Shown: one piece after another, positions 19,746 to 37,664 of the stretch | Numbering within the stretch: position 1 is the first letter of the stretch | Layout: every line of letters starts with the position of its first letter | Source: Muricauda sp. SCSIO 65647 | GTDB taxonomy: Bacteria > Bacteroidota > Bacteroidia > Flavobacteriales > Flavobacteriaceae | Reading direction: 5' to 3' | DNA length: 64,000 nucleotides | Assembly: GCF_021534965.1 (NCBI RefSeq) | Contig: NZ_CP091037.1 | Location: 846,501-910,500, forward strand | Notes under the pieces: model-generated | Told to the model about the DNA's origin: nothing | What the model saw: only the letters and a program-made list of their open reading frames with translations | The model's database searches: none | Position numbers and translations under genes: made by a program

Positions 19746-22700
19746 CTAGTTTCCAAAATTATACCGCAGCGTAAAGCCCGTGTTGATGGTGGTCTGGGGA
19801 AAAGCCGTCGATACCGCAAACTTTGAGAACGAATGGTCATAGAAGAACAAGGCGTTCAGGTTCTTGCTCAACGCATAATCGGCCGTAAAGTTGAACGACC
19901 AAAGGTTTTGGCCCGCGGTAATCTGGTTGTTGTCGATATCGAGATTGCGAATGATGGTGATATTATCTCGAAGCGATAGATCGGCCTTCAGGTTCAGGTC
20001 ACCCTTCAAGCGGGTACGCTCGCCGCCGATATTGGTCACAAATTTCACATCTTTAAAACGGTACCCCAACCCAAGGGTATATTCCTTGCCATTGATTTCG
20101 GTCAGCAGGTTATTGTCAAAACTCAACGAGAGGGTTCTATCGGTACGCACCTCGGCCAAGAAGCTAAAGGAGTTCTTCATTTCAAAATCAACACGAACCA
20201 AAGGATTGAAGGCATCGTTCAACACAACATTGTTGATGATGTTGTCGGGCAATAGGTCGCCTGTTTCAGGGTCTATTGCACTGTTTTCCTTTTCTAGATT
20301 GGTCTGGAACGAGTTGATGCTATATGCTGCACGGTAGCCATGTGTCAATGAAAAACGGGTAAACTTTTTCTTGAACCATTTGTTTTTCATCAGGCCGGTG
20401 TATTTGATGTTCCAATTGGGGATGGGAATATCACGAAAGGCATCCAAGTTCACACGGTTTACATCTTGCCCCGTGTAGGCCGCAAAAAAGGCTGGAAGCA
20501 GTACCTCTTGCTGGGTCTTGCCATAGCGCTCGGGAAAACCATCTTCGTCCAATTCACCAGGGGTCTCGCCCCTATCTGAAACCAAACGGTTGGCAATGGT
20601 GATACGGTTCGCCTTGAATTCTTCAAACGTTTCCGAGTCAAATTCATCGCTCTTTCTAAAAGCCGTACCGATCATCATGGTCGAAATGGTGAAATTGCCA
20701 AAGTTGTTGCCCAAAAGATTTTCATACTCAAATACGCCATTGCCCAAATCATTTACTTGAAAATTCTCTTGGTAACTGTTCGAAATCTGGCGATCAGCCG
20801 TGAGGTCAATGGTCAGCTCTTGTGTTGGTTGGGCGGTCGCGGTAATGGCCAATTGTTTGGTAGAGTTTTCCAGATATTGTGAATTGAACTCTGAAAAGGT
20901 CGTCAACCAACCCCTTCTGGCCGCCTCAAAACGCACATCGGCCTGACTACCGAACACAAAGCCCAATGAAGGCCTGGCCGTACCGATAAAGCCGATGGAT
21001 TGGGTATACCCGGGCAGTACCTTACCATTGTTTTCGGCATAGTTCACATTCACCCTTTTGACCATGGTCACGATATCGATCAGCGTATTAAAGGCCTTGC
21101 TCGTCTTTTTCTGGGGTTTTTGGTCTTCTCCCCCATCAGCCGGATTGCCCGCCTTGTCTCTACGAACCGGGGCGCGCTGGTTGGTCGGAATCTTGCCATC
21201 ACGTTTTTTCAGGCCTATGGCATCATAGAATCGTTGCATGGTCATATTGGCCGTTAAGTTATGGGTGTTGGCGTTCTGTATTGTGTTGATCTGTTCCCCG
21301 GGGTTTTCTTCCTGCACCACCTCATTCAAGGCATCACCTCCGCGTTGCCAGTCAAAATTGCTGGTATAGGTATATTGTGCATTGATAAAATCTAAGAATG
21401 GTATTTTATCAAACGGCAGCTCATAGTTAAGTTGCATCTGCTGCGAGTGGCGATTGGGCTCGCCGACATCAAAGAAACCATCCCACAGATTCAGATCTTG
21501 GTTGATGCCCGAATCAGGGTCTCCGGGAGTGTTGAAGTAGTTTCTGACAATGTTATTGTTCGATCCCGTCAACTGTAACCGAAGTGATTTAGAAAGACTA
21601 TAGTTCAAGGCATATTGCCAGTTGAAAAGGTAATTTCGCTGTTGCAAGAGTGGTAGATCGAGTGCCTCTACCCCAGGTTCAAGCACATCTCTAAAACGTT
21701 GTTGGTTGAACGATCGGTTGTAGTTCGCATTGACCGAAAGACTGGTCGGCAGTACGTTAAAATTCAATTCTTTCAACCATTGCCAATATTTACCGGTGAA
21801 CAGCGAATCTTTTTTTGCAAATGGCGCCACGGTGGCCGGTTTGAAATTGTGGTTATAGACAAAGCCCGTGGTGACGTTCTGGTCGCGCAGCTCGGCTATC
21901 TCAAAATCACGGTGATTGGTTTCGTTATACGAATAATTGAAAGTGAAATTTTCAATGTCAAAGAAGTTTTCCTCAGCCTCTTCGCCCCTCTCTTTTCGCA
22001 CCCCGATCAAGTTGATGCTCGTTCGTTTCGTATAATCTTCGGCCTGCTCCCTAATGGTTTCGGCTTCTTGGGCAGTTTCGGCCGCTGCAATACGGTCGTC
22101 TAATTTCAGGTCATCATAGACAGGGTCAAATTCTGGGGTGATCAAGGTCTCTGAAATACCGTAGTTGAACGGTATCTGTAAGCCCCATTTTTTAGGGAAT
22201 AACTGCCCTACATTTATATTGGTCACCACATCGTACGAAATGGCATCTTCACGTAAACGCTCATTGGGCAACTGATCGATAGAACCAAAACCAGAGGTGC
22301 TGCGATTCGCCGTGGCCGAGATATTGGCGAAATCGGCCATATTGGCATCCATGGCCATAATGGCCGCCCAGCCCCCATTGTTGTCGAGACCCGCCAAACG
22401 AAGCTCATTGAACCATACTTCACCCCTTGCCGGCACATCATCAATGTTCTTTACCCCCACCATCATGGCACGAATGCTACCCAATGAAGGATTACCCCTG
22501 ATACCGATACGGTTTCTCCCCAAAGTACGTGGGGCAAATTCATCTACGGGCACCACCTCTCCGTCGATCACTTCATAATAGTTGATCTCGCCCAAACTTT
22601 CATTGGCAATACCCAACGACTTGACCTTGTTCAAGTCAGAAAGGGCAATGTCTATTTCATTCACACTGGGCCATATCACATCGGCTGCACTAGACCCAAA

Positions 22701-25700
22701 AGGTGTAAATTGTAAAGGCAACTCGATTTGGTAGAAATTTTCTGAGAAATCTGTTCCGATCCTAAGGAAGCCCACCAGAGGGGTATCATCATTCGAATAA
22801 TCAGTATCAATTATCTTTTCTGCATGCATGAACATTTTGATGCGTTCATATTGCCTAACATCTATGTTCACGTTTTTGAACACTCCGCGAGCGTCTTGCG
22901 CCTCTAGGTTCTCGACGACAAATGACAGCGATTGTTCATTTTGGCGTATGATGGTGTTGTTGTTGTTCAACTGTTCACGAATAACGCCCGGTGGCAACAC
23001 GTAAGGTATCGGGGTACGGCCGCTGTTCTCTTCGATATTGACCGTGTTGACGTCGGTGACCGTACCATCATCAGAGGGATCATCTTCGTCGGCTTGCAAG
23101 GTATTGGTATAGGTTCGCCAGTCGCCACGAACCAAATCCAAGGTCGCGAAACGAAGCACCACATCATCTGAAAAACCGGTAAGGTACATTCGCATAAAAC
23201 TGATGGAACGAAAATCGGTGATGCCCCCGACCGCATCGGTAAAATCACTGAGCGGAATCTTATACTGGATCCAGCGGTAGTCGACCTCAGAACCATCGGG
23301 AACCCTTGAGCCAGTGGCTACACCCTCACGTATGTCGGTCACATATTGGTCGTCGATCGTGGTATTGGGCCTTATTTGAATGCGATATTCGTAGTAACTG
23401 TTCACTGTGTTCATGGTCAGGTCACGATCCACATCTTCAACATCTGGTAAGGTGGTCGAGCCCCGATCGGTATTGGTCACCGTTACAGGCGAGTTACCCT
23501 CTGGATTATTGAAATCGATATAACGCTCTAAAATGCCCCCTTCGCGGTTCAAATAATAGATATAGTTATCTAAGGCCGGGTCATCTGAAGGACCATTGTA
23601 TATCGAAGCCTCTCCGGTATCATCCAAACCATCAAAACCAAGATCCTGTAATGTACGGTTGGTCTCATCGGCATCAAAGGCATAGACCAATGACTGGGTA
23701 GCAGGCACCTCGCCCCAAGAGGTCGGCGCCACCAAATCGTTGCTATTGACCCCGGGTAGGCCATTTTCATATTGCTTTTTGCCATCTTTGAGCACATCTT
23801 CAGAAATATTGCCCAAATTGAGCACCAGCTCACCACTTGAAGTGGTATTGCCATCAACATAGGGATCCAATACCCAAAACTGCACAAACTCAACATTCGA
23901 TTGCTCAAAGTTGGTACTGCTCAACGAACGCATGATACCGCCCCATTTTTCTTGGGGCAGTTCCGCATCAAAATTGGTATTGGTGTTATACGGTCCCTTT
24001 TGGTTCGGATAGTAGGCCACATCCAATGTACCCTGTACCTGAGTCTGCCCTTGGGCGACATCGGTGACAGGAAATACCTCATCGATGAATACGCGTCGTG
24101 TCTCGTTGGTCGAGATATCGCTGTCAGTAATACCCGAAGGTCTTTGGTTGGTATAGAAAATCGGATCGATGGTGTACCAGGCCATTTTGGCACGACCCTG
24201 TCCGGTCAACAAGTTATCGGGGTCTTCAGGTGAGCTGCCGGGCAATTGGCCTCCTGTAAAGAACTCCAATGGCGGGCTGGCCAACATCCACCCTAAAGAC
24301 GATCGAATGTCAATCAGGGCCTGGGCGCCTTCAAAATCATCGAGATAAGTGGTCGTTTCTCCTTGAAAATCAGCATTCTTTGGTGAATTGGGTTTCAAAA
24401 CGGCCACTTCGCCCCTTACCGACAGGTTAGAAGGCACATCGGTATCAATGTTCGGCAGTTTGTTGACCAATCGTGTCAAAAAAGGCACTTCGGTACTGAA
24501 ATTTCCGTTAAGGCCAAAAATGGTGTTGTTCACGGGTTCTATACCAAAATTTGATTTTTGGGTCAACGGCCGCTCGTTCAGATTCAAAAGGGTACCCCCC
24601 AATACAAAATTTTCATTGAATTGATGTTCGACATTGATCCCTGTAAACCTTCTTGTCTGCTGCCCAAATACGGCATTGTTCTCAACAGAAATATTAATAG
24701 GGGTGTTTGAGGCCTCAAGACTGGGGTCGAGCAATTGTACGGTACCTGCCTGATAATTCACGGTGTAATCGATGCCCTCTTGCAATTGACGGCCACCGGC
24801 GGTCACCCGTACCGAACCCCGTGGTACATTGAAAGCCCCTATAGGGATACCGTTGGCACCCTCTGACTTATAGCGCCCTTTGAGTTGAAAACGGTTCTTT
24901 TCAGCATCTTGCAATGAAGCTGCTTTGGTCAGGGTATACATATTTCGAAAGACATACTTCTGTTGGTTGGCATTGAAGCTTTGTTCATTCGGAGCACCAT
25001 AATCCCCTCCTCCCAAAAGATCAAAAAGGTATTCCCCAAAAGGCTCCACTTTGGTGAAAATGATATTTCCTGATTGTGTATCAATTGTGATGCCGGGTAT
25101 ATAGTCAAAAAAACCGTCACCGCCCGATTGCACATCATTGTAGATGTTCAAACGGTCAAGGTTGAACACGTTCAGTAAAATACGCTCTTCCAAGGGCTTG
25201 CCATTGGCGCCCGCCGAAATGGGAAAAGGTTCTACCGGAGTGATATAGTTTCTGGGCGTCGGGTCTGAATAGAGAATGTTGAAATTGAAATCTTCTTGGC
25301 TGAGTTGAAACGCTCCCGTGGCATAGATGTTCTTCATCATCAAATCCCAAATCGGATCTTCGACGTTGGTAATATTGCTCTTCAACAATTTTAAGATAAG
25401 GGTATTGTTCTCGATTATGGGATTCACCCCACCAGAGACCGTAGTGGCATCGACACCCCCATTGGCAAACTCACCCACTTGAAACACCTCGCCCTGAAAG
25501 GTATATTGAAAGGCAACGCCCAAGACCTCATCATTGCTCAGTCGCTGGTTCAATGAGATATATCCCAATTGCGAATCGAATCGGTAATCACGGCCTACAT
25601 CCAGTTTTCGGGCATTTTCAAGTATGGCGTAATCAAAGCCTTGGTTGGCATTGTATCCGGTAATATCAAACCCTGCCTCAACCGTGGCAATGTCTCGAAT

Positions 25701-26936
25701 GGCAGCCGTCAAAGCGCCTCCAGCACCTATGAGCGTTGGGTCATAATCGTTTGCACCATTTTGGGGAAGCACTTCAGTGCCTACAATATTGAAGAACCCA
25801 GCTGGTGCATTACCTGCAATTCTGGTTATCTCACGGCCATCATCGCCCAATCTTGATTCCCCTAGATCTTGAATAGCGACCACGTTTCGCACGTTCAAGG
25901 TCTGCTGGTTTCGGTTGGTCACCCAGACTTCCAATCGGGTAATCTGAATTTGGCTTTGAATGAAAGGATAGTTGGCCAATGCATCATCGTAACGATCCCT
26001 GAAATATTGTGCCAAGAAAAAGTGTTTGTCCTCATCATAGTCCAATGCGGTCAGCGAGAATTCATTCAAGGTACCGCCACCCTGGGCCACCACTGTATTG
26101 TTCTGTGATTGCTGTTCAGAAAAAACAGCAGTTACAGTCGTTTTACCAAACTGCAACTGCGTTTTTACCCCAAAAAGACTTTGCGCGCCGGTAATCAATG
26201 AACTGTTGAGGGGCATGTTCACATTACCGATTTCTATCTTTTTGAGAATATCATCTTCTGTGGGGGTATAATCGAGTTTGACCAGATTCTGAAAATCAAA
26301 GGTCGCTTCGGTATCATAATTGGCCGTCACCTGAAGCCTTTCGCCCACCTTGCCCAAAAGGCTCAGACTGATTCGTTGGTCAAAGTCGAAAGACAGATTT
26401 GTACGATTTCTGGGCGATAGTGCCGGATTGTCATTCTTTTGCCAAAGAATGCCCAGATCCATGGCCACAGAACCCTGGGGAATGACCTCAATGGTGTTTC
26501 CACCAAAAACGGACTCAAAAAAGTTGCTGTTGACGTAGAAGTTGGGAAGCAAGTTCTTTCGGGCTTCTTCACTGCCTTCCTTTTTTCCCGTAAAGGCATC
26601 TATCTTATCTTGAAAGTACGTTTTCATACCCTCTTTGCGAACCAGCTCATAATACTGTTCAGGGGTCAGAAAAATAGGATAGTTGATATTGAAGTTGCCG
26701 ACGCTCTCGGTATATACATAGCGATCCAAAGCAGGGTCGTAGGTATATTTGGCCACAATGCTGTCAGGGTTTTCGAGCAAAATCTTACCAAGTGAGATCC
26801 CTGTCTTGACTGAATCTACAGCTTGTTCATCAGTATCTTGGGCCACTGTTGAACATATTACCCCAAATACTGCTGCAAAAAAGAAAAAATACTTAACCAA
26901 CGATACGTTAAGAAATCGTTTTGCCCCTCTTTTCAA
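19746..26936 (-). CDS. sprA: SprA, outer membrane translocon of the type IX secretion system
   Basis: A 2396-residue outer membrane protein. In Flavobacterium johnsoniae SprA forms the very large beta-barrel through which type IX secretion substrates leave the cell, with PorV and a plug protein; it is also needed for gliding. A signal peptide occupies residues 1-33 (hydrophobic core, STVAQ). The length and features such as DLGILWQKNDNPALSPRNR, TQLQFGKTTVTAVFSEQQSQ and EVWFNELRLAGLDNNGGWA are those of SprA/Sov proteins. The C-terminus INTGFTLRYNFGN ends as a barrel strand with a terminal aromatic region. No ATG is available: an in-frame stop lies 30 bases upstream, so initiation is at TTG 26936 or at a nearby rare codon. 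It follows ruvA by 5 bases. Confidence 0.95.
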   Translation of the reverse strand: MKRGAKRFLNVSLVKYFFFFAAVFGVICSTVAQDTDEQAVDSVKTGISLGKILLENPDSIVAKYTYDPALDRYVYTESVGNFNINYPIFLTPEQYYELVRKEGMKTYFQDKIDAFTGKKEGSEEARKNLLPNFYVNSNFFESVFGGNTIEVIPQGSVAMDLGILWQKNDNPALSPRNRTNLSFDFDQRISLSLLGKVGERLQVTANYDTEATFDFQNLVKLDYTPTEDDILKKIEIGNVNMPLNSSLITGAQSLFGVKTQLQFGKTTVTAVFSEQQSQNNTVVAQGGGTLNEFSLTALDYDEDKHFFLAQYFRDRYDDALANYPFIQSQIQITRLEVWVTNRNQQTLNVRNVVAIQDLGESRLGDDGREITRIAGNAPAGFFNIVGTEVLPQNGANDYDPTLIGAGGALTAAIRDIATVEAGFDITGYNANQGFDYAILENARKLDVGRDYRFDSQLGYISLNQRLSNDEVLGVAFQYTFQGEVFQVGEFANGGVDATTVSGGVNPIIENNTLILKLLKSNITNVEDPIWDLMMKNIYATGAFQLSQEDFNFNILYSDPTPRNYITPVEPFPISAGANGKPLEERILLNVFNLDRLNIYNDVQSGGDGFFDYIPGITIDTQSGNIIFTKVEPFGEYLFDLLGGGDYGAPNEQSFNANQQKYVFRNMYTLTKAASLQDAEKNRFQLKGRYKSEGANGIPIGAFNVPRGSVRVTAGGRQLQEGIDYTVNYQAGTVQLLDPSLEASNTPINISVENNAVFGQQTRRFTGINVEHQFNENFVLGGTLLNLNERPLTQKSNFGIEPVNNTIFGLNGNFSTEVPFLTRLVNKLPNIDTDVPSNLSVRGEVAVLKPNSPKNADFQGETTTYLDDFEGAQALIDIRSSLGWMLASPPLEFFTGGQLPGSSPEDPDNLLTGQGRAKMAWYTIDPIFYTNQRPSGITDSDISTNETRRVFIDEVFPVTDVAQGQTQVQGTLDVAYYPNQKGPYNTNTNFDAELPQEKWGGIMRSLSSTNFEQSNVEFVQFWVLDPYVDGNTTSSGELVLNLGNISEDVLKDGKKQYENGLPGVNSNDLVAPTSWGEVPATQSLVYAFDADETNRTLQDLGFDGLDDTGEASIYNGPSDDPALDNYIYYLNREGGILERYIDFNNPEGNSPVTVTNTDRGSTTLPDVEDVDRDLTMNTVNSYYEYRIQIRPNTTIDDQYVTDIREGVATGSRVPDGSEVDYRWIQYKIPLSDFTDAVGGITDFRSISFMRMYLTGFSDDVVLRFATLDLVRGDWRTYTNTLQADEDDPSDDGTVTDVNTVNIEENSGRTPIPYVLPPGVIREQLNNNNTIIRQNEQSLSFVVENLEAQDARGVFKNVNIDVRQYERIKMFMHAEKIIDTDYSNDDTPLVGFLRIGTDFSENFYQIELPLQFTPFGSSAADVIWPSVNEIDIALSDLNKVKSLGIANESLGEINYYEVIDGEVVPVDEFAPRTLGRNRIGIRGNPSLGSIRAMMVGVKNIDDVPARGEVWFNELRLAGLDNNGGWAAIMAMDANMADFANISATANRSTSGFGSIDQLPNERLREDAISYDVVTNINVGQLFPKKWGLQIPFNYGISETLITPEFDPVYDDLKLDDRIAAAETAQEAETIREQAEDYTKRTSINLIGVRKERGEEAEENFFDIENFTFNYSYNETNHRDFEIAELRDQNVTTGFVYNHNFKPATVAPFAKKDSLFTGKYWQWLKELNFNVLPTSLSVNANYNRSFNQQRFRDVLEPGVEALDLPLLQQRNYLFNWQYALNYSLSKSLRLQLTGSNNNIVRNYFNTPGDPDSGINQDLNLWDGFFDVGEPNRHSQQMQLNYELPFDKIPFLDFINAQYTYTSNFDWQRGGDALNEVVQEENPGEQINTIQNANTHNLTANMTMQRFYDAIGLKKRDGKIPTNQRAPVRRDKAGNPADGGEDQKPQKKTSKAFNTLIDIVTMVKRVNVNYAENNGKVLPGYTQSIGFIGTARPSLGFVFGSQADVRFEAARRGWLTTFSEFNSQYLENSTKQLAITATAQPTQELTIDLTADRQISNSYQENFQVNDLGNGVFEYENLLGNNFGNFTISTMMIGTAFRKSDEFDSETFEEFKANRITIANRLVSDRGETPGELDEDGFPERYGKTQQEVLLPAFFAAYTGQDVNRVNLDAFRDIPIPNWNIKYTGLMKNKWFKKKFTRFSLTHGYRAAYSINSFQTNLEKENSAIDPETGDLLPDNIINNVVLNDAFNPLVRVDFEMKNSFSFLAEVRTDRTLSLSFDNNLLTEINGKEYTLGLGYRFKDVKFVTNIGGERTRLKGDLNLKADLSLRDNITIIRNLDIDNNQITAGQNLWSFNFTADYALSKNLNALFFYDHSFSKFAVSTAFPQTTINTGFTLRYNFGN

Positions 26937-32758: not shown

Positions 32759-34126
32759 TTAGGCACTTGGCACTATATTTTGATTCATGTGGAAGAAGTT
32801 TTCTGGATCGTATTTCTTTTTAATGATTCTCAATCTCTCATAATTACCCTTGTAACTTTGTTTAACACGATTTTGACCTTCGTGCATCATAAAATTAACA
32901 TACCCTCCTCCACTGCTATACGGAATCATGGCATCGTAATATTTTCTCGACCAATCTCTAATCACCTTCTTGTCTTTAGGGTCTTCGGATACTCCGATAA
33001 TGACCTGAACCCATCTCACATCGCGATGTGCCCAAGCTGTATCTTCTAAAGCTACTTCATGTGCTTTACCATCGACAGGATACAAATGCATTGTTGACTT
33101 AGCTGTAGGCATCGCATTCGCAAATTTTAGGTGTTCTTTTATACTTTCATCTGTAAGCTCATTCATGTAGTGGCCTTTCCAATACCACTGAAGTCCAGGT
33201 GGGTAAGCCCAATCAAAAAGGCTGTTCAAGGCCGGCAAGGGCATTTCGGTTACCGCATCGAGTATAGGCGGGCCAAATTCTCGTATTGGTTTAAAAACCT
33301 TTTCGACTTCATCCATTGACCCTGTATAACACCAAACAACGCCACAAACTTTTTGATTTCGAAGCGATTCAGGAAATGCTTCTGCATCAGGCACGGTTAA
33401 AAAAGCAAAAAATCCATAGAGATCTTGCGAAGCATTCTTGGTAAAATGGTCATAAAAATTCATCACTTCGTCAGCACTTTCCAAAGGCCAAAGCATGGGG
33501 CCGGCAAATACATTCTTTATCGCAATCAAATTAAACGTGAATGAAACCACAACGCCAAAATTTCCGCCACCACCTCGTAAGGCCCAAAATAAATCTGGGT
33601 TTGTGTTTTTGTTGGCCGTCACAATTTCTCCTGATGCAAGTACGACCTCAGCTTCAATCAGATGGTCGATGGTCAAACCTGCCTTTCTTGTTAAAAACCC
33701 AAGTCCGCCCCCCAATGTCAATCCTGAAATACCTGTGTAACCATTCACACCAATGGGTAAGGCCAGACCATGCTCATGGGTTGCTTTATCAACATCGGCA
33801 AGGGTATTTCCTGGTTCAATTACGGCCCTGAGGCTATCAACATTAACTTGAATGGACTTCATTTCATTCAGGTCAATTACCAAACCATTTTCTACCAATG
33901 CCAAACCGGCACCATTGTGCCCACCCCCTTTAATAGCTATTTCCAAACTGTTATTTTTAGCAAAATGAATGGCCTGTACCACATCATATTTGTTTTTGCA
34001 CTTCACAAATAGTTTTGGCCGTTTGTCTACCATTGCATTATAGATACTTCGCAAAGTATCATATTCAGTATCGGTCGGCAATACAATACGACCATCAATT
34101 TTCTGTGCCAACTTTTCAATTTCCAT
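32759..34126 (-). CDS. FAD-linked oxidase, berberine bridge enzyme-like
   Basis: A 455-residue flavoprotein of the FAD_binding_4 plus BBE type. The FAD domain has IKGGGHNGAG with His70 in the position of the 8-alpha-histidyl FAD link, and GISGLTLGGGLGFLTRKAGL. No Cys occurs at the second attachment site of bicovalent enzymes, so the flavin is probably held by one covalent bond. The C-terminus carries the BBE motif NYERLRIIKKKYDPENFFHMNQNI. Such enzymes oxidise sugars, alcohols or aromatic compounds with oxygen; the substrate is unknown here. No signal peptide is seen. It starts 3 bases after the cupin gene and forms a two-gene unit with it. Confidence 0.88.
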   Translation of the reverse strand: MEIEKLAQKIDGRIVLPTDTEYDTLRSIYNAMVDKRPKLFVKCKNKYDVVQAIHFAKNNSLEIAIKGGGHNGAGLALVENGLVIDLNEMKSIQVNVDSLRAVIEPGNTLADVDKATHEHGLALPIGVNGYTGISGLTLGGGLGFLTRKAGLTIDHLIEAEVVLASGEIVTANKNTNPDLFWALRGGGGNFGVVVSFTFNLIAIKNVFAGPMLWPLESADEVMNFYDHFTKNASQDLYGFFAFLTVPDAEAFPESLRNQKVCGVVWCYTGSMDEVEKVFKPIREFGPPILDAVTEMPLPALNSLFDWAYPPGLQWYWKGHYMNELTDESIKEHLKFANAMPTAKSTMHLYPVDGKAHEVALEDTAWAHRDVRWVQVIIGVSEDPKDKKVIRDWSRKYYDAMIPYSSGGGYVNFMMHEGQNRVKQSYKGNYERLRIIKKKYDPENFFHMNQNIVPSA

Positions 34127-34129
34127 TTT

Positions 34130-34618
34130 CTAATTTTCGCTTTGCATCTTAGAAATTTTTTCCAAAACAAAGTCATTCAGTTTGATCATTTCCTTTTCAG
34201 GACTAAAATCAATAATTATAGCATCTTCATCAACGATAAGCGTGTGACCCGGTGGCATGTAAAAAACTTCTCCCGAAACGATTTGCTCGGTTTGGCCCTC
34301 TTTATTAATGACTCGAATTTTTCCCTTTTCCAAATAGCCCCAATGGGGTACTTGACATAGGTCGTCTTTCAATCCTTTTAAGATTGGAGTAAAATCGGTA
34401 CCAGCTTTTAGCTCATTGATTGCAACTGTCATTCCACCCCAACCATTGACCATGTTGATAATCTTATCTTTAGGAAAATTCTCTTTGGCGATATGTGTTT
34501 GCCCCTCGAACTTGCCTGTTTCAAGTACTACCTTTTGTGACCTTAGGTTCGATCCAACCAAAATTATCATTGCTATTGTAAATAGGGTTGTCGTTTTTCT
34601 GGTTTGTCTTTTTTTCAT
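34130..34618 (-). CDS. Exported cupin-fold protein
   Basis: A 162-residue protein with an N-terminal hydrophobic segment (about residues 10-25, ending GSNLRSQ) that looks like a signal peptide. The core has a cupin pattern: VPHWGYLEKGKIRVI followed by GEVFYMPPGHTLIVDEDA, with one His in the first motif and one in the second. It is not a recognised enzyme. It is transcribed with the FAD-linked oxidase, and the region upstream has an 18-base palindrome (34654-34671). Metal binding or small-molecule binding is possible; the function is not known. Confidence 0.75.
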   Translation of the reverse strand: MKKRQTRKTTTLFTIAMIILVGSNLRSQKVVLETGKFEGQTHIAKENFPKDKIINMVNGWGGMTVAINELKAGTDFTPILKGLKDDLCQVPHWGYLEKGKIRVINKEGQTEQIVSGEVFYMPPGHTLIVDEDAIIIDFSPEKEMIKLNDFVLEKISKMQSEN

Positions 34619-34671: not shown

Positions 34672-34772
34672 CCTAATATTTACATCTTAAAACTACACTG
34701 TCAATAAAACCGCAACTGTCAGAATTGTTCCAAATGTTGAAACTTTTTTGACTCTCTGATAAAATTCCAAGA

Positions 34773-35846
34773 CTATCGAGCTGCTTTACCAAAAACATTG
34801 GGCAGTACATCAAATCGTTTACGAAAAACCCGAGTGAAATAGGTAGGGCTATTGAAACCACAATCGTAGGCCACTTCCGCTACGGTCTTTTCACCCGTTT
34901 TTAATGCCCTTATAGCTTTTTTCAGTCGGAATTCAGTAAGTATTTTGTTTGGACTGAGGCCAGTTAAAGCTTGCATCTTTCTGTGCAATTGTGTTTTACT
35001 CAGTCCAAATTCTTGTCGAAAATTTTCGGTTTTGAATGAGGCATCATTAAAATTTGATTCCAGTATTTTATCTAACCGTTCAAGTACGGAATAACCTGAA
35101 TCATCAAAAAAAACTACGACATCAGAATCAGTAGACACTTTTTTGTTGGTCAATTCGACAGTATTTTTAGTGGGTAAATCGATAAAGATTTTTCCGTTAT
35201 TCCCCAATCTAGAAAGTACCCTGACCACTTTTTTGGTCTCCCCGAACAAATCATTGCTATGTTCATCTACCGGTTTTCCTGTAGCAATACCAAAACTGAA
35301 TTCGAGTTTTCCCTCTAAAGCTTTGAGCATAATATGAATTTCAAGAGCGCACACAACGGCATCATGGGCATCAATAAAGGAAGTCATGATACTTTGCTTG
35401 GGCAATTTTACAATACTACCCTTGTTTTTCTTTACAATCGCTATCAATTTGGATTTCCATGCCTCTGAATTTTTTGAAAAATCAACTATGTCAACAAGTA
35501 CCAGTGTTCGATAACCACTATCTATATCACCTGATAGTGTCAATGCCAGATCTTGCTCATTTTGTAGACCCTCACCCATGAATGGCAGAAATTCATTTTC
35601 TGTTGAGACTTCAATGACATTGCAAGCTCCTACACCATGGGCCTCCTTATGACTTTCAACACATGCTTTCCTATTCGGGCTCTCCATCAAACAAAAAATG
35701 GCTCCTTGTTCCAGATTCAGATAATACCGCTTGTACACTAGGCCATGTTTGTTCTGAACGGCCACATCCCGCAAATGCCCTTTGTATGCATCTTCTTCGG
35801 TAAATGCATCATCTTCAATTTTATGAAAATCCATGAATAAAGGCAT
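34773..35846 (-). CDS. AraC-type regulator with DUF4242 and cyclase-like domains, copy 1
   Basis: A 357-residue cytoplasmic protein in three parts. Residues 1-82 are a DUF4242 domain (family of the nickel-binding protein SCO4226), with MPLFMDFHKI, IFCLMESPN and HKEAHGVGACNVIEV. Residues 112-235 resemble a class III nucleotide cyclase: LVLVDIVDFSK keeps the first metal Asp, but the canonical GDG loop is replaced by KQSIMTSF, so catalysis is unlikely. Residues 255-352 are an AraC-family DNA-binding domain (FGLSKTQLHRKMQALTGLSPN, VAYDCGFNSPTYFTRVFRKRF). It lies between the cupin-oxidase pair and the secreted DUF4242 gene; its likely targets are neighbours, which is inference. A paralogue with the same architecture is at 36460-37560. 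Confidence 0.85.
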   Translation of the reverse strand: MPLFMDFHKIEDDAFTEEDAYKGHLRDVAVQNKHGLVYKRYYLNLEQGAIFCLMESPNRKACVESHKEAHGVGACNVIEVSTENEFLPFMGEGLQNEQDLALTLSGDIDSGYRTLVLVDIVDFSKNSEAWKSKLIAIVKKNKGSIVKLPKQSIMTSFIDAHDAVVCALEIHIMLKALEGKLEFSFGIATGKPVDEHSNDLFGETKKVVRVLSRLGNNGKIFIDLPTKNTVELTNKKVSTDSDVVVFFDDSGYSVLERLDKILESNFNDASFKTENFRQEFGLSKTQLHRKMQALTGLSPNKILTEFRLKKAIRALKTGEKTVAEVAYDCGFNSPTYFTRVFRKRFDVLPNVFGKAAR

Positions 35847-35898
35847 CCGTACTAAATGGATTGAGGTTAATCAGTTTAATTTAAGAAAATAAATTACT

Positions 35899-35931
35899 GA
35901 TTAAAAAACCGAGGTGCCTGACTTCGGTTTT
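35899..35931 (-). terminator. Intrinsic terminator after the secreted DUF4242 gene
   Basis: AAAACCGAGGT (35905-35915) pairs with ACTTCGGTTTT (35921-35931), 11 bp with one G-U pair and a 5-base loop; on the minus strand it ends in TTTTTTAATC. It lies 30 bases past the stop at 35961 and isolates that gene from the AraC-type regulator that follows. Confidence 0.78.
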
Positions 35932-35960
35932 GATGTAGTGAATGACTCTCTTTCTGACGG

Positions 35961-36362
35961 TTATTCGTTAGCGGTAGCGGGACTTATTTTCGTTGACATT
36001 TCTTGTACCGAATTCACAGGAAAGCCCCCTTTTTCGGCATGTTCCCGAATCAAATCTTGGCTTTCGGCTTTGTAGACACAATACACCTTATCATCGGTCA
36101 CATAGCTGTGCAACCACTCTATTCCGGCTCCCATTTCTTTCAACACTGAACATGATTTTTGGGAGATGCCTTTAAGTTCTTCAGCGGTCAATTGCCCCGC
36201 ATTGGGAATTTCACGTTCGATCAAATACGTTTTCATTGTGGTTTTTTCATTTTTTGCCTTTGCCATTTTGGTGTAGATCACTTCTTGTTCTTGGGCATTG
36301 ACCGCCCCGTGAAAAAAAAGACATCCCAGAAGGGCTGCCATCAATACATTACATTTTTTCAT
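35961..36362 (-). CDS. Exported DUF4242 (nickel-binding-like) protein
   Basis: A 133-residue protein with a signal peptide (residues 1-23, AVNAQ) and a DUF4242 domain at about 43-125: TYLIEREIPNAGQLTAEEL, GIEWLHSYVTDDKVYCVYKA and IREHAEKGGFPVNSVQEM. The His in REHAEKGG matches the conserved His of the family (HKEAHG and HDRAHG in the two regulators). The homologue SCO4226 of Streptomyces binds nickel, so metal binding is plausible but unproven. It sits between two regulators carrying the same domain and has one copy of the AAAAATGGTTCA box 83 bases upstream. A TAGTTTTG -7-like box lies at 36391-36398. Confidence 0.82.
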   Translation of the reverse strand: MKKCNVLMAALLGCLFFHGAVNAQEQEVIYTKMAKAKNEKTTMKTYLIEREIPNAGQLTAEELKGISQKSCSVLKEMGAGIEWLHSYVTDDKVYCVYKAESQDLIREHAEKGGFPVNSVQEMSTKISPATANE

Positions 36363-36429
36363 GATTTAGCTTTTAAGGATTTAACTTCCTCAAAACTAAA
36401 TTGCTACGCCATAGAAAAATAGTACTCCC

Positions 36430-36456
36430 GAACCAAGAAATGAGAAAAATGGTTCA
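36430..36456. promoter_or_regulatory. Candidate AraC-type operator upstream of the secreted DUF4242 gene
   Basis: AAAAATGGTTCA (36445-36456) is identical to the two boxes upstream of the second regulator, and GAACCA (36430-36435) is an inverted half site 20 bases away. It lies just past the regulator stop codon and about 70-90 bases upstream of the secreted protein start. Confidence 0.5.
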
Positions 36457-36459
36457 GGT

Positions 36460-37560
36460 CTACATGGCCTTTTGGTATGCCAAGGGAGACATACCAAACC
36501 GTTCTTGAAAGCATTTGGTGAAGTATGAAGGGCTGCCAAAACCACAGTCAAAAGTGGTTTGGGCAATGTTTCGGTCGGTCTTGAGCAGTTCAAGTGATTT
36601 TTTCAGTCTATACTCCCGTAGCATTTCATTGGGCGACAACCCCAAAATTGCCTTGCTTTGGCGATAGAGTTTTGATTTGCTCATACTTGTTTTTTTACAG
36701 AAATCCTGCATACCGAATTGTGGGTTTGCATGGTTATCCCACAACACATCAAATATCAGTTGCAGCACATTCTCATTTGCCGGTGAAATAGATGTGAAGG
36801 CAGCTTCGTCATTGATGTTGTGCTGGCCATCATCTTTATAAAGCTCATTGATAATGGAAGCCAATACCGTCTGATTGGGTGTACCCGTCCGACACAGGTA
36901 TTCTGCCATTCTAATGACATCTCCAAAAATGCTCTTATCTTTTGTGACCGGCATTCCGGCATTGAGGGCCATTCGCAAATTTATCAACTCACCGGCCACA
37001 TGAAGCCCTTTTTGCACTGCTGCAGCACAGGCGACAGCTTGGGTGACCGATACAAAAGAGGCGATAAACCGTTCTCCTTTCAGCTCTACCTCACGGCCTT
37101 GGTTTTCATTTACCTGATCCCGAATGATTTCATGGTAAAGTACCAGCAATTTTTCCGCTTTTTTGGCTCCCATTTGGTTTTTCAACAGTCGAGAATCCTC
37201 GGCTTGGGCAACCAAAATGATGCGAAAAGCCGGGTCATTGAAAATTTTGAGATTGGGGTCATCGGAATCGTAATATCCCTCGGGATCCGTTACCCGGCCC
37301 AAAAAGGCCTCTACCACGTTACTGTTCACCTGAACAATTTCATAGGGGATAAGGCCATGTGCCCTATCGTGCATTTTCTTGACAGCCTCTTCATTTGGAG
37401 CATCGATTAGGCAGAAGGCACTGCCCCGATCTTCATAGACCCAATAGGTCATGCAACGACAGCCATATTCATCTTGTATCAACAAATCTTCACGATGTGC
37501 CTGTGCCGCATGCTTGGCCTCAATTCCCGGTACGATATGTCGGTCCATGTAAATGGGCAT
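36460..37560 (-). CDS. AraC-type regulator with DUF4242 and cyclase-like domains, copy 2
   Basis: A 366-residue protein with the same three-part build as the regulator at 34773-35846. The DUF4242 part (1-80) has MPIYMDRHIVPGIEAKH, SAFCLIDAPNEEAV and MHDRAHGLIPYEIVQV. The middle part (112-240) follows the class III cyclase fold, ending GDVIRMAEYL, but lacks the first metal Asp (LVAQAEDS) and has GERFIASF instead of GDG. The AraC domain (265-364) has TSMSKSKLYRQSKAILGLSP and TFDCGFGSPSYFTKCFQERF. It is probably a ligand-sensing transcription factor rather than a cyclase. Two direct repeats 66 and 87 bases upstream of its start suggest autoregulation. Confidence 0.85.
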   Translation of the reverse strand: MPIYMDRHIVPGIEAKHAAQAHREDLLIQDEYGCRCMTYWVYEDRGSAFCLIDAPNEEAVKKMHDRAHGLIPYEIVQVNSNVVEAFLGRVTDPEGYYDSDDPNLKIFNDPAFRIILVAQAEDSRLLKNQMGAKKAEKLLVLYHEIIRDQVNENQGREVELKGERFIASFVSVTQAVACAAAVQKGLHVAGELINLRMALNAGMPVTKDKSIFGDVIRMAEYLCRTGTPNQTVLASIINELYKDDGQHNINDEAAFTSISPANENVLQLIFDVLWDNHANPQFGMQDFCKKTSMSKSKLYRQSKAILGLSPNEMLREYRLKKSLELLKTDRNIAQTTFDCGFGSPSYFTKCFQERFGMSPLAYQKAM

Positions 37561-37625
37561 ATCACTTTTGATTCAAAATGTTCTTGGTTTTTTAAAGAAA
37601 GGGAACTTTTGCTACTGAAAATAAA

Positions 37626-37664
37626 AAAAATGGTTCAATTAATAGCAAAAATGGTTCAGAACCA
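37626..37664. promoter_or_regulatory. Direct-repeat operator upstream of the second AraC-type regulator
   Basis: AAAAATGGTTCA occurs at 37626-37637 and again at 37647-37658, exactly 21 bp apart, two turns of the helix, as in AraC-family tandem half sites. The second copy runs into GAACCA (37659-37664), giving the palindrome TGGTTCAGAACCA. It lies 66 bases upstream of the regulator ATG. Confidence 0.6.

Follow-up and report, generated by a model that had tools for sequence, protein, structure and literature searches.

A five-gene block with two three-part regulators

The window analysed here is a stretch of 64,000 nucleotides from Muricauda sp. SCSIO 65647 (assembly GCF_021534965.1, contig NZ_CP091037.1, positions 846,501 to 910,500 of the forward strand), in which five minus-strand genes make up one block. 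They encode the regulator R2 (36460-37560), the putatively exported DUF4242 protein S (35961-36362), a second regulator R1 (34773-35846), a cupin-like protein (34130-34618) and an FAD-linked oxidase (32759-34126). Both regulators join an N-terminal DUF4242 domain, a middle domain resembling class III nucleotidyl cyclases and a C-terminal AraC-type DNA-binding domain; in R2 these span approximately residues 1-90, 111-245 and 263-364. R1 follows the same three-part architecture, represents a second subtype and is 29% identical to R2. S has 133 residues and a signal-peptide-like start as judged by eye. All features given below lie on the minus strand of the window.

Profile searches support this architecture. 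PF14026 (DUF4242, now named SCO4226-like; Pfam cut-off 28.5 bits) matches R1 at 54.8 bits (residues 4-80), R2 at 64.4 bits (4-78) and S at 94.3 bits (46-121), and HTH_18 (cut-off 33.6 bits) matches the C-termini of R1 and R2 at 72.5 and 75.7 bits, which places both in the AraC/XylS family. Pfam flags no domain in the middle part of either regulator. In NCBIfam, residues 128-240 of R2 match LipJ below its cut-off (1.3e-9; 37.3 bits vs 800), and a nine-homologue profile finds, among PDB sequences, the class III cyclases Ma1120 (2.1e-17) and LipJ (1.4e-11). On profile similarity, the middle domain of R1 likewise appears to be class III cyclase-like.

Structure prediction agrees. The AlphaFold2 model of R2, built from 49 sequences (pLDDT 93.6, pTM 0.90), matches the cyclase domain of Rv1900c (Z 17.2, rmsd 3.0, 146 residues) and AraC-type domains at Z about 15 (YesN C-terminal domain, Z 15.0). 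Its structure-match list (VIA) is dominated by residues 86-271 and is uninformative on the resemblance of the N-terminus to SCO4226 of Streptomyces, which the sequence profiles show. For S, the model (pLDDT 83.0, with an N-terminus of low confidence) matches nickel-bound SCO4226 (Z 11.5, rmsd 1.6, 79 residues), with the next row of the fold search at Z 7.7, and S is thus predicted to have the SCO4226 fold; S has no match among PDB sequences. A phmmer search with the R2 N-terminus alone returned mostly TALE repeat proteins through a short AHGL stretch, and this was dismissed as chance.

The preliminary description of this DNA had proposed the three-part architecture, a secreted DUF4242 protein between the two regulators, and an adjoining cupin and FAD-linked oxidase, and had called for Pfam searches and structure prediction. 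Its coordinates and reading frames for R1 and R2 are exact, and the searches and the R2 model bear out the arrangement, including the cyclase similarity of both middle domains. The cupin match of the 162-residue protein is weak and falls under the Pfam cut-off; its start resembles a signal peptide by eye. The oxidase carries FAD_binding_4 and BBE domains and starts only 3 bp past the cupin gene, so the two probably form one unit, headed by the cupin gene and the likely target of R1. The genome holds exactly three PF14026 matches, namely R1, R2 and S; because there is no further match, chance does not account for their clustering. The oxidase has no further relative in the genome at E<=1e-10. 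In the open-access literature searched by title and start of abstract, which leaves subscription papers mostly outside, no description of the DUF4242-cyclase-AraC architecture was found.

Several related proteins show other combinations of these domains. In the family sample described below, proteins of about 250-285 residues carry the pseudo-cyclase and AraC domains without DUF4242 (10 of 10 fetched, L234-L243); the sensor therefore looks like a removable module. Two proteins have two tandem DUF4242 domains (L143:4880-5626, L144:5529-6185), and in L141:2385-5761 two DUF4242 genes directly follow the gene of an 862-residue AAA-TPR-LuxR regulator, which puts another regulator type beside the same domain.

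A cyclase fold without its catalytic set and a likely sensor unlike the nickel sites

Class III cyclases use two metal-binding aspartates, a substrate-binding lysine, and an asparagine and an arginine that act on the transition state. These columns were read from the alignment with Ma1120 in 113 regulators, the subset of 127 candidates with passing matches to each of the three domain profiles (81 R2-like, 14 R1-like and 18 others). The catalytic asparagine is missing in 113/113; the first metal aspartate is kept in 15, the second in 30 and both in 10, none of which falls within the 81 R2-like proteins. At the positions of the first metal aspartate, the lysine, the second metal aspartate, the asparagine and the arginine, the residues are, in this order, Q, E, E, V and Y in R2 and D, K, Q, T and V in R1. 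R1 and R2 have the class III fold and lack the catalytic residue set; to judge by these columns, normal cyclase activity is very unlikely in either, and an active cyclase was rejected. Dimerisation would be the natural remaining role of such a dead cyclase-homology domain.

A pseudo-cyclase might still bind a nucleotide and act through it. This idea, which together with repression instead of activation forms one alternative that we regard as improbable, could draw on the 10 relatives that keep both metal aspartates. Against it, the substrate lysine position is occupied by glutamate in 70 of the 81 R2-type proteins.

The DUF4242 domain retains a constant residue set. Asp6, His8, His22, Asp25, Cys50 and His64 are invariant in 113/113 regulators, and His68 is present in 106. 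The six invariant residues align with the same residue types in SCO4226 (Asp6, His8, His23, Asp26, Cys51 and His65), and His68 does not. In the R2 model they are spread over strands 1 and 3 and helices 1 and 2, a placement that would let them meet. An Asp/His/Cys set of this kind appears suited to binding a metal or a small ligand, and DUF4242 is the likely sensor.

Nickel was the signal suggested by SCO4226. That protein binds nickel and its gene is nickel-induced (PMC4186839), although the affinity is called low by its authors (Kd 10 uM), and the crystal ligands are reported there as His76/Asp43/Ser46, His23, His3/Glu38/His12 and His20/Glu74 (PMC4186839). A nickel- or metal-responsive switch, in which an exported DUF4242 protein that sequesters nickel is switched on by the AraC part, could rest on this relative, on the match of R1 and R2 to the SCO4226 profile over its length, and on the potential metal-binding Asp, His and Cys residues they keep. 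The Asp43 position is Asp in 85/113 regulators (Tyr in R2, Asn in R1), and the fold search with S lists NikR and copper chaperones, at Z 7.1 or less, near background.

The published ligands themselves are mostly gone. Among the nine ligand positions taken from PMC4186839, His23 alone is invariant (His in 113/113). Every one of the 113 has Ile, Val or Leu at the His76 position, the Ser46 position is Ser in 5, the Glu74 position is Glu in 34 (including R2), and the His3, His12, His20 and Glu38 positions are replaced in most or all. NF033706, the SCO4226 nickel-binding equivalog with a cut-off of 125 bits, is far from reached (R1 35.9, R2 47.6, S 12.6). S retains Cys95 and His108, equivalent to Cys50 and His64, and lacks counterparts of D6, H8, H22 and D25. 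The genes linked to the regulators (oxidase, SnoaL-like protein, nitrilase, SoxA/TsdA-type cytochrome) are also unlike metal homeostasis. In the alignments, then, the set conserved with SCO4226 is a different one from the published nickel sites; crystal-type nickel sites in R1 and R2 were mapped and found mostly absent. A nickel switch is accordingly unlikely, and the suggestion that nickel is the signal was not upheld.

Conserved neighbours and a paired operator

The neighbourhood of R2 is conserved well beyond this genome. A scan of 84,980 species genomes yielded 462 relatives of R2, of which the best 80 were kept, a choice that biases the following count towards R2-like genes: 67 of the best 80 have S downstream in the same orientation, within 350 bp in 65 and at 69-170 bp in 54. 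All but one of these 80 (79) are named for a Bacteroidota genus or group, the remaining one only as 'bacterium'; family and phylum of the relatives' genomes are partly inferred from named relatives. The order seen in the window, an R2-S unit plus an R1-cupin-oxidase unit, occurs among the best 80 only in the near relative L021.

An evenly drawn sample of 397 genomes of the window's family contains 101 with a match at E<=1e-40. The 76 R2-type loci taken from it (30 + 46, some from one genome) leave out most R1-type matches and three R2-like matches at E<=1e-100 (one interrupted by a stop, one lying at the end of a contig, and L136). S is found within 1 kb in 33 of the 76 (just upstream in 9), and the oxidase downstream within 2.5 kb in 28; since 30 of the stretches extend only 1.5 kb to each side, the oxidase can be missed, and the window locus itself (L158) thus counted as S only. 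Under these distance limits and with 30 short stretches, no locus of the 76 has both. Across Bacteroidota the architecture is found repeatedly, and S and the FAD oxidase are its two recurring neighbours. The preliminary description had made its model depend on a link to a secreted DUF4242 gene; that link holds for R2-type regulators, although in another large group the linked gene is the FAD oxidase.

Distant loci from a phylum sample extend the pattern. The regulators there, paired in L130-L133 and single in L134, stand ahead of a small SnoaL-like protein (Pfam checked for L130 only) and an oxidase of the same kind, and further neighbours of the regulators encode nitrilase, DinB-like, acyl-CoA dehydrogenase and cytochrome c proteins. 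Taken together with the FAD oxidase, these are mostly small-molecule enzymes or exported proteins, and operator-like sites lie ahead of several of them. This fits an organic or redox-active small molecule as the signal, handled by S and the FAD oxidase, an idea that names a ligand class within the activator reading preferred below. It is a serious candidate, held at slightly less than an even chance; weighing against it, the targets show no evident common chemistry.

Some of these neighbours deserve separate mention. Nitrilase-family genes adjoin R1-like regulators that precede them in two loci (L138:3172-4125 and L145:9299-10216, Pfam run for L145), with a double site of 24-27 bits ahead and no -7 box found, and a third (L132:187-1098) lies a few genes from an R1-like regulator. 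R2-R1 tandems occur in Ulvibacterium, an uncultured Flavobacteriaceae bacterium, two Kriegella and Pricia (L040, L042, L046 and partly L039 and L043). Behind them come genes for a cytochrome c, an unassigned protein whose start is Tat-like, a DsrE-like protein and a TauE/SafE transporter, preceded by operator-like sites; Pfam, run on L046 only, gives a SoxA/TsdA cytochrome and DsrE just under the cut-off, and the L039 stretch ends after the cytochrome and that of L043 inside the DsrE-like gene. A small lipoprotein-like protein recurs near S-less R2-type regulators (L148:5214-5792, L050:7492-8010, L067:4844-5431). Two of its three copies contain MGHH and L067 a variant; the L148 copy has no Pfam match, and an operator with -7 spacing precedes the copies of L148 (seen as L170) and L050.

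Alignment of the spacer regions revealed a repeated word, two TGAAnnATTTnT half-sites 21 bp apart. The predicted operator ahead of R2 (37620-37658; 40.1 bits) consists of the half-sites TGAACCATTTTTGCTATT (37641-37658) and TGAACCATTTTTTTTATT (37620-37637) with a period of 21 bp; the region reads TGAACCATTTTTGCTATT AAT TGAACCATTTTTTTTATT and is the sole mismatch-free match of the double-site pattern in the genome. The -7 box of flavobacterial sigma-A is given as TAnnTTTG (PMC9723704). The degenerate box TTTCTTTA of the R2 promoter (37593-37600), 19 bp past the proximal half-site, does not match it. A possible third half-site, TGAATCAAAAGTGATATG (37558-37575), lies over the R2 start codon, 62 bp after the start of the second half-site and below the scoring threshold in the window. 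Ahead of S, the predicted operator (36418-36456; 14.0 bits) has a strong distal half-site (36439-36456; 18.0 bits) and a proximal one at 36418-36435, followed after 19 bp by the -7 box TAGTTTTG (36391-36398). Ahead of the cupin gene, a candidate R1 operator (34715-34753, half-sites 34736-34753 and 34715-34732) is followed, again after 19 bp, by the -7-like box TAGTTTTA (34688-34695); a 21-bp self-repeat in the R1-cupin gap does not rise above other periods.

These separate promoter elements bear on the transcription units. A possible terminator between S and R1 (35903-35930; 7-pair stem, 11-base loop and T-run) was read from the sequence by eye; a terminator scan with a loop limit of 8 does not list it, its loop being 11 bases. 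A single operon of all five genes is disfavoured by the separate promoter elements and by the possible terminator after S. The five genes probably make up at least two transcription units, and the likely targets of the two regulators differ. A sigma-70 promoter scan, blind to Bacteroidota promoters, stayed at the shuffled level (11 matches vs 9.1). On the flanks, the upstream neighbours of R2 are a GNAT acetyltransferase gene and ruvB, and queG lies beyond the oxidase. Elsewhere in the window, positions 19746-26936 encode a 2396-residue protein with SprA_N (motility/secretion), adjoining ruvA.

The operator was evaluated across relatives with a weight matrix trained on 27 R2-upstream regions (the window and L021-L046). 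In held-out loci (L047-L100), a 21-bp double site occurs in 38 of 48 R2-S gaps, against 0.04 expected by first-order resampling. Over gaps and upstream regions, the commonest spacing is 21 bp (74 pairs), followed by 33 and 54 bp (26 each), which is a second pair of half-sites. When 908 kb of the 80 loci were scanned on both strands at 16 bits, 27 matches fell before R2 and 66 in the gap between R2 and S, and 7 lay outside these two places. The seven all lie in S-less loci: four directly behind the last R1 gene (L039, L040, L042, L046) and three ahead of further genes in L039, L040 and L067; in four of the seven the next gene encodes a cytochrome c. Training and scanning loci overlap for the spacing count and the 908-kb scan, and some species of the family sample may also be in the training set; the held-out gaps and the oxidase loci, hardly represented in training, are cleaner. 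Ahead of FAD-oxidase units the double site is present in 21/26 (1.8 expected), with a -7 box at 18-20 bp in 20/26 (0.4 expected).

The position of the site relative to the promoter is also largely constant. With a -7-like box defined as TAnnTT, then T or A, then G or A, 59 R2-S gaps have a detected half-site and enough sequence; in 54 of them the first such box lies 19 or 20 bp past the last half-site, with another 21 bp added if the proximal one is degraded or undetected (0.6 expected, maximum 5 in 200 resamplings). A site 19-20 bp ahead of the -7 box is in the usual place of an AraC activator. Repression, the other part of the alternative introduced above, might be suggested by a third half-site close to the R2 start codon, scored at a downstream distance of 62-63 bp in 15 of 32 site-containing upstream regions. 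The end of the S site 19-20 bp before its -7 box argues against it.

Linkage and motif could also reflect shared ancestry of a conserved gene block rather than regulation. Some block conservation is evident, as ruvB and queG both lie within the stretch, with the regulator between them, in 16 of the best 80 relatives. The motif, however, persists in distant loci, recurs before unrelated targets and follows S when the gene order flips: where S precedes the regulator, a site lies ahead of S in 8/9 loci (p<=0.02 each) with -7 spacing in 7/9, and the gap behind the regulator has a site in 1/9. It is missing before 15 of 16 S relatives without a regulator. In that control, small DUF4242 genes with no regulator in a stretch of about 3 kb, one of 16 has a site at p<0.05 and 15 of 16 lack a signal stretch; DUF4242 genes with a regulator have site and signal stretch in 5/5 and -7 spacing of the best site in 3/5, three of these five genomes having been in the training set. 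An exported single-domain DUF4242 copy without such a regulator was seen once (L118). Ancestry without regulation is thus very improbable. The two-domain cyclase-AraC proteins without DUF4242 have a double site in 3/10 (0.6 expected) and -7 spacing in 0/10.

The reach of the operator appears local. At up to 3 mismatches, the double-site pattern gives one perfect match in the window genome (the R2 promoter) and five 3-mismatch matches, where the backwards control gives one. On this result the idea that R2 controls a wide regulon within its genome was set aside, although the pattern also misses the degraded S site and a weak-site regulon may exist. The same search in nine other genomes (41 matches vs 33 in the control) gives no readable genome-wide regulon; in five of the nine, a match lies at the regulator's own locus. 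Among 25 chosen gaps around other regulators, a double site at p<=0.04 is present in 16 and absent in 9. The nine include all six tested regions ahead of R1-like or distant regulators, the window S-R1 gap among them.

A predicted activator circuit and its place among known systems

The best explanation, in which we have good though not full confidence, is that R1 and R2 are AraC-type activators with a local range: R2 would switch on its own gene and S, and R1 probably the cupin and oxidase genes. The preliminary description had proposed a metal- or ligand-responsive switch controlling the neighbouring secreted protein and enzymes. Control of the exported DUF4242 gene by an AraC part is supported by linkage and operator geometry, and control of the enzymes is probable; nickel as the signal is the part that is not supported.

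Several observations weigh against the activator reading. In the window, the -7 box of the R2 promoter is poor, the proximal half-site ahead of S is degraded (-4.0 bits), and the candidate R1 site ahead of the cupin gene is weak (p about 0.04, one of the 25 gaps tested). Among relatives, 13 of the best 80 lack S (two with less than 1.2 kb of downstream sequence), six of these carrying one to three R1-type genes right behind R2, and 15/76 family loci have neither S nor oxidase in reach. Only 32/81 R2-upstream regions contain a half-site, and 28 of these belong to the window and L021-L047; control of its own gene is therefore not general. R1-oxidase loci have the double site in 5/5 and -7 spacing in only 1/5, and in L130-L134 the site ahead of the SnoaL-like gene is modest (p 0.007-0.02) with no -7 box found. 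One S-linked member, L139, adjoins an S gene, has R2 as its best match and keeps both metal aspartates, which means that their loss is not universal in such members. Finally, a factor other than R2 could bind the site, since linkage and motif are no proof of binding by R2 itself.

In the proposed mechanism, R1 and R2 would be cytoplasmic one-component transcription activators of the AraC kind. R2 would form a cytoplasmic dimer whose DUF4242 domain senses the ligand, with the dead cyclase-homology domain probably serving as a dimerising relay. The AraC domain of active R2 would bind the paired direct half-sites 21 bp apart, which end 19-20 bp before the -7 box, and would contact RNA polymerase at the -33 region, recruiting it to the S promoter and to its own. 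At araBAD, AraC occupies half-sites with the same 21-bp spacing next to the -35 box, and this agreement suggests the same mode of activation. S would be exported; with a fold like that of the sensor, it probably encounters this ligand or a related one beyond the cytoplasm. In like manner, R1 would most likely switch on the unit of cupin and FAD oxidase. A more specific version, which we put forward tentatively and consider rather doubtful, holds that sensor and exported partner are a matched pair: the DUF4242 domain of the regulator would read inside the cell the ligand that S captures outside, with the cyclase domain as dimer relay.

By DNA-binding domain and predicted operator, R1 and R2 appear to belong with the AraC-family activators. 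They share with AraC/XylS proteins such as AraC at araBAD the C-terminal double helix-turn-helix (HTH), and their predicted operators resemble that of AraC in having direct half-sites 21 bp apart and a position near the promoter; in R2 loci these paired sites come with strong statistics. AraC has an arabinose-binding domain; R1 and R2 would instead use DUF4242 and a dead cyclase domain as sensor. Their N-termini and mature S fall within the family of SCO4226 (PF14026), which is free-standing, has 82 residues and differs in its crystal nickel ligands, most of which R1 and R2 do not conserve. Ma1120 and Rv1900c (LipJ) have the fold of the middle domain together with the catalytic residues that R1 and R2 have lost.

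A further parallel is offered by the mycobacterial regulators that likewise fuse a cyclase-homology domain (CHD) to a DNA-binding HTH (PMC3466318). Their HTH is of LuxR type and that of R1 and R2 of AraC type, with no LuxR-type domain, and cyclase activity is spoken of for the CHD+LuxR member Rv0386 (PMC3466318). Alphaproteobacterial proteins annotated as 'nickel-binding proteins' (271-280 residues; L155, L156, L157) match the DUF4242 and cyclase-like parts of R2 at no more than 38% identity over residues 1-241 and are too short for its AraC domain. No S-like gene is named near them in three annotated stretches, whose gene tables are possibly incomplete.

These results turn an uncharacterised domain family into a testable circuit, with operator, promoter and likely targets predicted to the base. 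R1 and R2 also illustrate clearly how a class III cyclase domain has taken on a non-catalytic role within a transcription factor. If the matched-pair version were true, the circuit would be an inside-outside feedback pair, and exported single-domain DUF4242 proteins would have arisen mainly within it. The predicted circuit could lead to the ligand of DUF4242 in Bacteroidota.

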